Shown: one piece after another, positions 50,267 to 57,047 of the stretch
Layout: each line of letters opens with the position of its first letter
Position numbering within the stretch: the first letter of the stretch is position 1
Position numbers and translations under genes: made by a program
Assembly (NCBI RefSeq): GCF_013426205.1
Contig: NC_089425.1
Coordinates: 2,294,001-2,358,000 of the forward strand
Direction of reading: 5' to 3'
Source of the DNA: Metarhizium brunneum
Lineage: Eukaryota > Ascomycota > Sordariomycetes > Hypocreales > Clavicipitaceae
DNA: 64,000 bases
The notes under the pieces: generated by a model
What the model was told of the DNA's origin: nothing
Database searches by the model: none
Seen by the model: only the letters and a program-made list of their open reading frames with translations

Positions 50267-50438
50267 TGATGGTACGTGCCCTGTCCTGTGCTTTATCATG
50301 CACGGTGCCTGGAAATGGCTGTGAGGCTTTGGAAACAAGCCGGAGATGATGTGATGGTGGCCTGCATCATGAAAGGGAGGGGCGCCAGGCGCCAATTCTA
50401 CTCCGCGGTTCCTTGGAGTGGACGGCTGGGCGGATATG
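50267..50438. other. 3' flank of TENA-like gene up to repeat
   Basis: Short untranslated stretch; nothing distinctive. Confidence 0.4.
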
Positions 50439-50930
50439 CTTGGCGTCTTGGCGTCGAGGTTTGTTTCCTTTTAATGTTCCTCCCAGCACGACGCACGGGT
50501 TTTCATGCACGGCCTGTATCTTGTAATCTCGAGTCTCTCTGTCCTGTTTGCGAATCGTCATCTGACGAGTGTGCCAGTGTACTGCTTGCAGAGAGAACAA
50601 CACAGCTGCAGATCTGGAACTGCTGTTTTCCCCCGCTTTGTCTCTTGTTTCTTTCAAGTTGTGCTAGTGTGCCTCGGCTTATTCTTGCAATGCCAAGCAC
50701 GTAAAGTCACCCTGATCGTATGGCCAGTACTACCACTCCCCAAGGCTCATATTACATGCATGGAACTTGTTCGCCGGGAATGCCGGGGTGAAGTCGCATG
50801 TGCACACTTACACAAAGGGGACGGACCACACATTTGGGGGTGCATCACGACAGACGCTTCAGTGTTTCGGCGATGATTGCAGGCCAGGCTTGGAGCTGTG
50901 TGCTGCAGCAGCGGGCACAATAATAATAGT
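50439..50930. repeat. Direct repeat, left copy, flanking the island
   Basis: Begins GCTTGGCGTCTTGGCG and ends at GCGGGCACAATAA. It matches, in the same orientation, the sequence at 55715-56176. The best-conserved part is about 50634-50930, including GGGGACGGACCACACATTTG and CACGACAGACGCTTCAGTG. The 5' part is interrupted in the right copy by an AT-rich stretch. Most mismatches that I can align by eye are transitions (roughly 18 against 6 transversions). No terminal inverted repeats or coding capacity for a transposase seen. Confidence 0.8.
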
Positions 50931-50984
50931 AATAGCGGACGCGGTGCTTCCTCCGCCGGGTTAGCGGCACGCTTATTCAGGATT

Positions 50985-51440: not shown

Positions 51441-54006
51441 ATGCCGATCACTGCGATCCTAGGCTCCCAATGGGGTACTTACAGCCCTGTCATCGCTTAG
51501 CACCAGGCATGGAGATCTGCTAACGCGAGCCTGCTTTTCTAGGAGATGAAGGGGTTTGTCTGCCTTCACACGCGATATTGAACCTCTTCTGACGAGCGTG
51601 GCCGACAGAAAGGAAAGCTGACCGACATCCTTGCCACCAACGCGCAACTCTGTGCGCGAGCCGCCGTGAGGACGATCCGATCCGCATAGGAAATGTATAC
51701 TGAGATAGAGATGTAGGGCGGTCATAACGCAGGGCATCAAATTGTGTGAGCCGAGACGGATCTGTGTAGGGGTATTGGAGTGGTCTTGCTGATTCTGGAA
51801 TAGTACCGGGGGTGTGTCGTACAGGTATGCAGTCACATGGCACCGTCAGAGGTGATGGAGAATACTTACTCACCTAGTTTCCACCTTCTTCCTTCTGGTC
51901 TCATCAACCCGAATTGGTAACTCATTCGATTCACTGCTTTGGTGTTGCAGGACTGATACTCATCTTAGCTTGAACTTGATTGGTTCAGGTGTTGTTTTCC
52001 ATGTGTAAGTCGCCGCGGGCCCCCGGGGAGGAGGTCTAGTTCTATCAATTGGCAAATTGACTTCCTTTAGCCCATCATTCTTCAGCGAGCTCAAAGAACT
52101 TGATGAGAAAGGCCTCCCCCGAGTTTACGATCGTATCCTCGTCTCGGACCGGGTTCATATTAACTTGGACCTTCACATTGCTGTCGATGGCCTTGAAGAG
52201 GCTGAGCTTGGAGGTGAGTAGTCAGTCTACTTAGTACGCGAAACACCCCCCAGCAGCTTCTGATGTCGCATTCTAGAGCAAAAAATTGGAACCACAGGCC
52301 GTGGAATTGGCCCATGTTACAGTACAAAGGCTGCAGTAAGGACTACACCAAAGCGACGATAAAACAACACTAAAATCTGCTCAACAGCGAACTGGAATCC
52401 GATTAGCAGAGGTTTTCAAAGCCGAGCTGTTTGAGTCAAAACTTCGGCGACTTGCATCAGGCTTCGCCAAGAGATACGGGGACTTGCTGAGGTAAGAGTC
52501 AGCTCATTGCGGAGTATGCTGCCCATTCTGACACCATCATCAAACCAGGTATGACGTTGAGGACGAAATCGCCCGTTTTAGAGAATACCGTCCGAAGCTT
52601 GCCGGATTCGTCGTCGATGCCGTGTCCTTCATGCGGTCTGCGCAAGAGAAGAACATGAACATTCTTGTGGAGGGTGCCAATGTAAGAGCTCTCTTCTTTA
52701 TAGAAGTACCGCGCTGATCTATTTGGTGGCCTGAGCAAATGTGCCTGCGCAGGCCCATTGCTCGGTCTGCCTAGACAAAGGCCTTGATGCTAGATCTCGA
52801 CGTTGGATCATATCCGTATGTATTCTAAAGCTCTATCAACCAGATGTCAGGCATTAACAGTGAACAAGATACGTGACAAGTTCTACCACAACCGTGGCAG
52901 GCATTATTGGCGGGTTGCACCTTAATCCACGTGGCCTCACAGAAGTGGTCGGGGTGATCAAATCCTGTACGCTCCATCCATTTTCACCCGGCTGAAAACA
53001 ACATCTTTCCAAGGAGTTTTGGCCGCTAGTGGCTTTTTTACCCATATATTTGCTTGTATATACTAATAAGAAACAGATACGACACGAGTTGGGATGGGCA
53101 GTTTCAAAACGGAAGATCTTGGAGAGTTAGTCATTCAGCCTACAAAATGTGTTTAGTTGCTAATCATATGCGGCAGAGATGGCACAAAACTCCAGGAACT
53201 CGGCAAAGAATGGGTACTTATTTTTTCCCGAACTTATTTTAATAGTGCTAATTGTGTCAAGGGGACGTCCACTGGTCGACGGCGTCGTTGTGGTTGGTAA
53301 GTTTCTCAGATATTCGAGACTTGTGACGAGAAAGTCTTGGCTAATTCAGATAGGCTCGGTACATGAAATCGCTTGCCCCAGTCTAATATATTCTTCCCGG
53401 TATTATTAACATAGATTTTGCAGATCTTGTGGTCCTTCGATATAGCACAGCTATCAATTACTATACAGCACTTAACCTAACTAAGGTGATTGAATATCTC
53501 TGTTTATGTTCGCCCTTTTGGTCGAACAGCGGCTGACTCGCTTCACCTCTAAAGCTGGACGTGCTGGATACATTCGAGACGATTAAGGTCGCTGTGGCGT
53601 ATAAGGACCCCGAATCCGGTGAAGTTCGTTTACAGATGTCTCCTATAGAGTTGCCAGCAGATACTAACTAATCTTGCAGGAGTTGGCTTCGTACCCTACG
53701 GATCCCGATATTCTCGATCGAGCTCATGTGGTTTATCATGAGATGCCGGGATGGAAGAGACCGACCACAAACGTGAAGACCTTTGATGATCTTCCCAAGC
53801 AGGCGCAGGACTATGTCGAGGTAAGAACCATATCATTGCTAGGGGGCAGTGTCATTAACTGTTGTTGCTAGTTCATTGAAAGCTTTGTTGGAGTCAAGGT
53901 AAAATTACAATTTAGAAGGTTGATTTTAACATTTTGATATATTAACATTAAACAGGTAAAATGGATTGGTACTGGCCCTGACCGGGAGAGCATGATAGAG
54001 AAATAG
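51441..54006 (+). CDS. Adenylosuccinate synthetase, exceptionally intron-dense copy (22 exons)
   Basis: GTP-dependent enzyme converting IMP and aspartate to adenylosuccinate, first step from IMP to AMP; cytosolic. Exons: 51441-51474, 51543-51553, 51609-51665, 51717-51745, 51804-51824, 51878-51916, 51969-52004, 52071-52213, 52277-52335, 52388-52491, 52549-52681, 52781-52815, 52869-52966, 53077-53125, 53177-53213, 53262-53296, 53354-53358, 53424-53485, 53555-53623, 53680-53820, 53872-53898, 53956-54006. They total 1275 nt and 424 residues without a stop. The P-loop-like GSQWGDEGKGK has Asp13; GGHNAGH has His41, both at E. coli numbering. IMP/Arg loops [18 protein letters not shown] and [13 protein letters not shown], guanine-contact NLTKLDVLD and C-terminal [10 protein letters not shown] are present. 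All 21 introns (48-110 nt) are GT-AG, most with CTAAC/CTGAC-like branch sites. No simple frame exceeds 65 codons here. It is not a pseudogene on this reading; the weakest calls are exons 5, 15 and 17. Confidence 0.85.
53354..53358 (+). other. 5-nt micro-exon (GCTCG) of the adenylosuccinate synthetase gene
   Basis: Between introns 53297-53353 (GTAAGT ... GCTAATTCAGATAG) and 53359-53423 (GTACAT ... TTTTGCAG). Inclusion joins TG + GCTCG + AT to encode Trp-Leu-Asp, exactly the conserved GWLDL of this enzyme family. Skipping it gives an in-frame TGA. Confidence 0.72.
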
Positions 54007-54284: not shown

Positions 54285-55430
54285 TTATCTCAAGTGGTTG
54301 GTGTTGATGTGTAGGGCACAGATATAGACCAAGGGCGTCGGTGATTGCTGTCGTAATCGGTCGATATTTTTCTTCCAACAACGGAAGGGTCTCGCAATTG
54401 GTGCCCCGGTCTCGGTATGAGTGGACATACAGGGTCCAAGTCTGACCAAGGGAAGCCTGTCACCTGCCTCGATTGCGAATTTGATAGCGTCACAGTTGTA
54501 CCAGGCATCTGACTTGAAGTTGCGAATGGACTTGTGGGGCAGGCGCTTCCTCCCGAGGCTAATAGTGTCTTCCTCTTCAACCTTGGTTTTGCTGAGAACC
54601 TCACAGAACACCGCAGCAAGCTCCTTGACTGATTTTGTCAAGCAACAGCGAGATAGTGGCTCCTGGGCAAGTCAGCACATCTTACCTGTTGAAGGCCATG
54701 CTCGCTCTGCAAGTCCGCTGCTGCTTTCGCATCCAGCACGCGGCATGACATCAGGGCATCGAGTAAGCCGGACACGACCAGTAGCTTCACTTGCCGCCGC
54801 ATTGCATGCAGCACATCGATCGCACGCTGGTCTGTTTTGAGTAACTCAATAACGTCTTCCAAAACTCCCACCGACAGGTAGCTCCATTTCCCACGGAGCG
54901 GTTAGGATATTGGACAAGGAGACTTCGTCACACAGGCTGACCGACCAGATTTTCCGGGATAGAATGATCCCTGGTCCAACTCCTTCGACGAGCCTCCGAA
55001 CTTTCTTGGGTGCGCTTGACGATGGCATAGAACCTGCAAGAGGCGACCACCAATCAACAGGATGAGCAAAGAAAGGATCGCAGGTCTCATACACATGCCA
55101 CTGCTCCTCTAGGGCGTTGAGGGGCACTTCTGTTCCCTCTTTGTAATCTTCAGAGTCAAACTTGCCTTCGATGAACTCCTCCAACCCGCGCTGGTAATAT
55201 TCTGGGGGATGGACAATCCCACCGGAGAGCTGGATCTGGTCCTCGACATCAATATCGGTGCCAAGGTCGCCGTCGAGGTCACAGTCAAGATCAACATCCT
55301 CAACGCTGGAGACGTCGGTGTCTGAGTCGCCTCTAGGCTCATCCGACTCGAAGGCTTTGTAAATATCCTCAGACATGTATGGGTCATCTGAATTGTCCAC
55401 ATCAACGAGAGACTGCCGACGTCGTGCCAT
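54285..55430 (-). CDS. Unrecognised island protein, three exons
   Basis: I do not recognise a family. Proposed exons 55430-54934, 54881-54686 and 54623-54285 (343 residues). The first donor (GTGTGA at 54933) could instead be GTCGGT at 54945, shortening it by four residues. Branch CCTAAC lies before the first acceptor; the second intron is GTAAGA ... TTGACAAAATCAGTCAAG. The N-terminal 75 residues are very acidic (about 25 Asp/Glu) with a basic MARRRQ start. Then come PPEYYQRGLEEF, EQWHVYETCDPFFAHPVDWWS, a Leu-rich helical middle (VGVLEDVIELLKTDQRAIDVL) and a C-terminal domain with SDAWYNCDAIKFAIEAGDRLP. No signal peptide or membrane segment. It is convergent with the adenylosuccinate synthetase gene and shares its island. 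The coordinates of introns are inferred from frame continuity only. Confidence 0.6.
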
Positions 55431-55714: not shown

Positions 55715-56176
55715 TTGCCTGGCGTCTTGGCGTTGAGGTTTCCTTTCAATACTTGATGTTCCTTCCAGGACACACGGCTTATATTTTACACTTTTAAGTT
55801 TCTTAATAAAGTAGTATATTTGTAAATTATTATTTAATAAGTATATTAATATATTACCTATAAATAAGATAATACCATTGTAAATTTAAAACTATGATCC
55901 CCCCCTTTATCTCTTGTTTCTTTGCGCTAGTATACCTCGGCTTGTTCTTGCGATGCCAAGCACGCAAAGTCACCCGTCGTGTAGCAAGTACCACTCCCAA
56001 GGCTCGTGTATGGAACTTGATTGCCGGGAATGCCGGAGTAAAGTGGCATTAATGTACATAAAGGGGACGGACCACACATTTGGAGGTGCGTCACGACAGA
56101 CGCTTCAGTGGCTCGGCGATGATTACAGGCCAGGCCTGGAGCTGTGCGCTGCTGCATCGGGCACAATAACAGTAGT
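55715..56176. repeat. Direct repeat, right copy, flanking the island
   Basis: Same orientation as 50439-50930. Starts GCCTGGCGTCTTGGCGTTGAGG; after about 75 nt it is interrupted by an AT-rich stretch and resumes at about 55907 (CTCTTGTTTCTTT) up to CGGGCACAATAA. The distance between copies is about 5.3 kb. No further copy is seen in the window. Confidence 0.78.
55785..55895. repeat. AT-rich tract inside right repeat copy
   Basis: About 110 nt almost wholly A/T (TTATTTAATAAGTATATTAATA and similar), replacing GC-balanced sequence present in the left copy. It looks like a mutated remnant or a replaced segment. Confidence 0.65.
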
Positions 56177-57047
56177 ACCAACAACATTGAATTAACATGC
56201 GCAGAGAGTCTGGGCCTGGCGCCTGTCCAGTGTGCCATGCCAGTCAGTACACCAGCCACTTTGACTGTGATCAATTGGGTCAATGAATAATGCGTCGGCG
56301 GCCCACTTCAATCAAATGCCTGGCTAGTCACACTTGACTGGACATGCAGCACCAGACCACCAGACACATGTGTGTGCAGTCTGCCGTGCTGTGCTGTGCC
56401 TCGCCATCGAATAGCCACAGCCATTTTTATCCCGCCTTTGATGCGGCCCCCCGTCAACAAGTCTAGAAAGCTCTGTCGCATTCTATCCGCACATGTGCAG
56501 CCCGAAACGGCCCTCCCGACATGTCCCTCCAGGTCCCCCAATGACGACCCCCTCTCAAAGGCGGCGCAGTCGCGCGCAGGCAAGATGCAAGTCCTGTCCG
56601 GTGGTCCCTTGCTGCGCCACCATCGACGCTCAAGTGCTGCGTTTCACCGGGCCACCAGCAAGGCGCACTTTGTCCAAGACGTCTTCTGGTGCCCCAGACC
56701 CGGCGAACACAGCCCTACGCTACCATCATTGATGGCTAACGTGCTGCCGTCATAGGTTGACGCGAGGCCGATGAGCAAGGCAGTGGCCGCAGCTGCGTAG
56801 GACCCCGGCCAGCCAGTGCTTGGCTTACGCTCCCCCACTTCGTCCATCGCTTGAGTGCGTGCTTTGTTCACGGCTTTCGGCTTTCTGTCAGATGATATTT
56901 AAGTTGGCCTTGTCCTCCGGGGGCGCTCCTTCCATTTCCTCTCCCCATCTCACTCACGCATTCCTCTTGCCTCTTCCCATCAAACATTCATCCATCTCGA
57001 CAACGTCCATACCACCACAAACGTCCCTTACCACCCATACAGCCACA
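56177..57047 (+). promoter_or_regulatory. Promoter region of the glycine-zipper protein gene
   Basis: 870 nt. ATATTTAA at 56895-56902 is a good TATA box about 150 nt upstream of the ATG. It is followed by a long CT-rich leader (56930-57040), the usual arrangement in strongly expressed fungal genes. Open frames between 56372 and 56755 look spurious. Confidence 0.6.

Follow-up and report, generated by a model that had tools for sequence, protein, structure and literature searches.

The fungal adenylosuccinate synthetases (AdSS, or ADE12; PF00709), represented by the rice blast enzyme MoADE12 (PMC9330342) and by the solved chain 5i33, are the closest described counterparts of the gene reported here, which resembles them in length and in catalytic and substrate-binding residues. 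It is unlike this reference in that the Pyricularia oryzae row belongs to the other deep group of the tree described below, in that Metarhizium brunneum carries a second intact paralogue, and in its 21 introns; the word "intron" is absent from the main text of the MoADE12 paper (PMC9330342). A second related system is provided by the AdSS homologues in biosynthetic clusters of Hypoxylon, which are likewise duplicates of a housekeeping enzyme, whereas no cluster backbone was found around the present gene (PMC12616698). No duplication of AdSS in Metarhizium was evident in the literature searched. Regarding intron content, a study based on an orthologue set gives a mean of 0.47 introns per kb for Pezizomycotina and a reconstructed 7.6 introns per kb for the fungal ancestor (PMC8476143). 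The window analyzed here is a stretch of 64,000 nucleotides (C4:2294001-2358000) of the M. brunneum ARSEF 4556 genome, all of which (7 contigs, 37,771,916 bases) was searched; its AdSS gene is referred to as the C4 copy, and that on contig C1 as the C1 copy.

The structure of the C4 copy was obtained by spliced alignment of the window DNA to an independent protein, P0002 of Nemania diffusa, and reads as follows.

51441..54006, + strand: AdSS gene, C4 copy, 22 exons, 21 introns, 424 aa (spliced protein-to-DNA alignment)
Exons 1-11, + strand: 51441-51474, 51543-51553, 51609-51665, 51717-51745, 51804-51824, 51878-51916, 51969-52004, 52071-52213, 52277-52335, 52388-52491, 52549-52681
Exons 12-22, + strand: 52781-52815, 52869-52966, 53077-53125, 53177-53213, 53262-53296, 53354-53358, 53424-53485, 53555-53623, 53680-53820, 53872-53898, 53956-54006
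53354..53358, + strand: 5-nt exon GCTCG, which completes Trp-Leu-Asp in the conserved motif CGWLD

The alignment is gap-free from 51441 to 54003, is followed by a TAG stop codon at 54004-54006, and scores 1859; as a rough control, the AdSS protein P0224 placed on a region with a decayed AdSS fragment alone scored -7. The complete 22-exon, 21-intron gene of 424 aa proposed in the preliminary description is thus reproduced to the base, and its estimates of 58 nt per exon and about 16 introns per kb agree with the measured 57.95 nt and 16.5 per kb. All 21 introns are of the GT-AG type, with lengths of 48-110 nt, and 10 of them are not multiples of 3. Near their 3′ ends, 14 of the 21 introns carry a CTNAY branch-site motif, fewer than the 19 of 21 that do so in the C1 copy; in addition, the C4 copy has several poor donors, e.g., GTACAT and GTAAAA. 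The GC3 value of the gene (0.518) is low, yet inside the 0.50-0.72 range of six window ORFs. Two relatives of 424 aa, P0003 and P0007, occur as single open frames on contigs of 1566 and 1575 bases, which would most simply be spliced mRNA. In the C4 pre-mRNA, the 21 short introns would be removed in vivo by the ordinary spliceosome.

The CGWLD motif that depends on the 5-nt exon is intact in 23/25 Logan-only rows and in 188/259 other rows among those fetched from databases; some of the 71 non-Logan rows without it carry true substitutions or truncations, and many look mis-spliced. The earlier suggestion that this gene is hidden from annotation holds in part: the M. robertsii counterpart (P0001) is annotated, but its model contains a wrong stretch after residue 43, and many models of the family are without the motif. 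Gene models in this family (P0001, P0124, P0127, P0170, and others) are often wrong at short exons, and P0124, the annotated M. brunneum C1 protein, omits a 36-nt exon and is wrongly spliced in the vicinity of the 5-nt exon.

Judged by its sequence, the C4 gene is an intact-looking adenylosuccinate synthetase (PF00709). Three exon stretches of the locus exceed the cut-off in the PF00709 search of the genome, and the spliced protein aligns with AdSS family members over its whole length. The catalytic and substrate residues were checked against E. coli PurA, mouse AdSS (1iwe), and 5i33, the Cryptococcus enzyme. The equivalents of E. coli Asp13, Lys16, Asn38, His41, Thr128, Thr129, Arg143, Arg303, Arg305, Lys331, and Asp333 are all kept, in agreement with the earlier reading of Asp13, His41, and the IMP and GTP motifs as intact; Gln224 is Asn, as in mouse, and both M. 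brunneum copies have Ser for Thr300 and Thr for Ala299 (E. coli numbering). The product would accordingly be predicted to convert IMP, Asp, and GTP to adenylosuccinate.

The preliminary description had read the intron density as the mark of a basidiomycete-like or otherwise intron-rich origin, and had expected an intron-poor AdSS elsewhere in the genome. A second AdSS gene was indeed found, on contig C1, and it is equally rich in introns.

C1:5759045-5762197 (L008:2546-5698): AdSS gene, C1 copy, 22 exons, 21 introns

Alignment of the two proteins, which are 72.4% identical, shows 19 introns to coincide in both position and phase and another to be offset by 1 nt, leaving one intron private to the C4 copy (after residue 177) and one private to the C1 copy (after residue 132); with sites assumed to be uniform, the chance of 19 shared sites is 6e-38. 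The GCTCG exon is likewise present in the C1 copy, and both copies contain 16.5 introns per kb, whereas the loop at residues 140-147 (E. coli numbering) is altered in C1. Because 19 introns are common to both copies, the intron density is older than the C1/C4 split, and because both paralogues share it, it is no sign of foreign origin. Derivation from a basidiomycete or another intron-rich eukaryote, to which the density alone would point, has a negligible probability, and such a donor is ruled out by the introns common to the C1 copy and by the position of the gene among Sordariomycetes in the tree, where both copies lie. It had also been proposed that the gene would simply be native if the same introns recurred in other Hypocreales; in essence such sharing is what was found, though between two copies of one genome. 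Furthermore, a recent burst of intron copying, as by introner-like elements, was rejected, since the best intron-intron scores, both inside each set of 21 introns and from one set to the other, stay in the range of shuffled sequences.

Searches of the genome with PF00709, P0114, and P0224 revealed two intact AdSS genes, at the C4 locus and at C1:5759.0-5762.2 kb, and no intron-poor copy. P0114 and P0224 also match one weak place near C1:6296.3 kb, which was rejected as a third functional AdSS because it is decayed and contains stops.

C1:6296290-6296724 (L009:4791-5225): dead third AdSS copy, a decayed fragment containing stops

This fragment sits between an ORF with a Sas10/Utp3 domain and an EMP70 ORF, and its 12 best rows all fall in the group that holds both M. 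brunneum copies rather than in the M. rileyi type. An AdSS of the Claviceps/M. rileyi type, for which about 85% identity would be expected, was not found in the genome with the M. rileyi query P0224: its five best stretches, 52-64% identical, all lie in the C1 and C4 genes, and a short stretch of 79% over 24 residues is also in C4. The rows P0213, P0214, P0225, P0228, P0229, and P0235 are full-length open AdSS frames that share 74-80% identity with the Sordaria protein; their contigs, at 2.3-8.9 kb, are long for simple transcripts, and some genes of the Sordaria type may have few introns.

The AdSS tree comprises 97 rows, in which Sordariomycete AdSS mostly form two groups: the first, of 26 rows, includes Sordaria, Pyricularia, Claviceps, and M. 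rileyi, and the second, of 66 rows, includes both M. brunneum copies. The C4 copy joins M. robertsii (100/96), then Nemania diffusa with P0003 (100/100), followed by Fusarium decemcellulare with Thelonectria (100/99) and Sarocladium (100/97), so that the row of N. diffusa, a member of Xylariales, nests inside Hypocreales rows; SH-aLRT is weak at two nodes near C4 in this 97-row tree (Nemania with Metarhizium 100/73; Thelonectria 91/15). Constraining Hypocreales to exclude Nemania was rejected with p 5e-8 for a group of seven rows and 0.0013 for one of five, both groups being named after the tree had been seen. The C4 protein is 97.4% identical to that of M. robertsii (a partly mis-spliced model), 96.0% to Nemania, 92.3% to F. 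decemcellulare, and 90.8% to Sarocladium, and the C1 protein is 96.7% identical to one of Xylariaceae FL1651. As a yardstick from the other type, M. rileyi is 83.5-84.1% identical to Claviceps of the same family and 70.4% to that protein of Xylariaceae FL1651 which falls in the M. rileyi group. The 96% match between Nemania and C4 suggests either lateral spread or a contaminated Nemania record, and the latter could be the case, the protein being from a single 44.7-kb contig. Taken together, the identities and the tree favor lateral movement, and for the transfer raised in the preliminary description there are thus signs, in the sense of some lateral transfer. A rival reading, in which the paralogy is simply ancient, losses were numerous, nothing was transferred, and the Nemania row is a contaminant, is considered unlikely: it accords with the two deep groups, in each of which Xylariaceae FL1651 has one member (P0080, P0245), and part of the pattern could come from an ancient paralogue that evolved slowly and was lost many times, but cross-order identities of 96-97% exceed the 83.5-84.1% seen within one family for the other type. 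The C4 copy is most likely a working, laterally acquired AdSS.

The two copies differ at the loop on the IMP side, which bears on which of them is the main enzyme. In all 28 rows of the C1 clade in the 97-row set, Ser stands at E. coli Lys140 and Lys at Arg147, two active-site residues of the E. coli enzyme for which the literature searched gave nothing relevant, whereas the other 69 rows keep Lys140 in 66 cases and Arg147 in 68. A further 80 prokaryotic homologues (by bacterial or archaeal titles) and 80 viral-contig loci, 35-46% identical and used for residue counts only, keep Lys140 in 80/80 and 78/80 and Arg147 in 79/80 and 69/80, respectively. Of the intact copies found, C4 alone thus has the usual loop, and it is possible, if somewhat doubtful, that it serves as the main AdSS after loss of the Claviceps/M. 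rileyi type, and that the C1 copy does something else or serves other conditions; the failure of P0224 to find more than two copies and a relic agrees with this. Against it, the loop tolerates shifts: in the C1 clade an Arg follows one position later, and in rows of the Fusarium graminearum kind the Lys comes one position earlier. Lys in place of Arg147 also occurs in 8/80 viral-contig rows. In addition, C1-type rows are common (110/284 fetched rows by motif) and include proteins of F. fujikuroi named "probable ADE12", so that this type is probably a genuine AdSS. Both M. brunneum copies may work. As was first supposed, the C4 copy may be an "extra" beside a housekeeping gene elsewhere, although the unusual loop of C1 and the failure to find the Claviceps/M. 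rileyi type make this uncertain.

The C4 copy lies in a repeat-bounded island, as the preliminary description had stated, in which direct repeats enclose approximately 5 kb holding the AdSS gene and a second gene.

50437..50931, + strand: left flanking direct repeat, approximately 0.5 kb, three blocks
55716..56177, + strand: right flanking direct repeat, three ungapped blocks 71, 86, and 90% identical to the left repeat
54285..55430, - strand: second island gene, approximately 343 aa, three exons, spliced by hand

A search of the genome with the left repeat found no third place for it. The second gene matches no Pfam family above the cut-off and has weaker matches in the genome at C4:654544, C4:792913, C2:210543, and C6:4150651.

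The surroundings bear on the proposal that a second AdSS is kept for tolerating a natural AdSS inhibitor, produced by the fungus itself or by a neighbor. Such a role is rather improbable, despite the AdSS homologues known from Hypoxylon, where biosynthetic clusters were mined for resistance genes (PMC12616698), the patchy records across orders, and ABC transporter ORFs on C1 (L011:7202-10000, L008:1-1614), which lie upstream of the C1 copy on the same strand and end 0.9 kb from it. In C4, Asp13, His41, and most residues of the Asp loop keep their canonical identity, and a search for backbone domains of polyketide, peptide, or terpene synthesis was negative in 46/46 window ORFs of >=150 aa, in 13/13 listed ORFs of the next 20 kb rightward, and in 22/26 listed ORFs around the C1 copy, although intron-broken genes could escape it. 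A biosynthetic cluster around C4 was accordingly rejected for the window and the next 20 kb, within the same reservation for intron-broken genes. No link between AdSS and Starships was found in the literature searched.

Overall, we consider it likely that the C4 gene is a working AdSS of an anciently intron-packed Sordariomycete lineage, brought to its present place in a 5-kb segment and belonging to a subtype that has moved between species. This Sordariomycete lineage would have been packed with introns already before it split into the two paralogues of M. brunneum; the C4 copy would then have arrived inside the 5-kb segment together with the second gene, a direction and route of transfer that we infer; and its patchily recorded subtype would have moved between fungal species, probably across orders too. 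These results correct the tempting inference from extreme intron density to foreign origin, and illustrate that a 5-nt exon is often missed by automatic gene models. The remaining puzzle is why one gene family holds approximately 16 introns per kb, as compared with the 0.47 and 7.6 per kb given for Pezizomycotina and the fungal ancestor in the orthologue study (PMC8476143). Furthermore, the locus provides a concrete case for testing the displacement of an essential housekeeping enzyme by laterally spread fungal paralogues. Tentatively, the inherited essential AdSS may have been replaced in the Metarhizium lineage of M. brunneum and M. robertsii, so that AMP synthesis would run on two laterally spread, intron-packed subtypes, of which the C1 type has a remodeled loop on the IMP side, perhaps selected by compounds that target AdSS.
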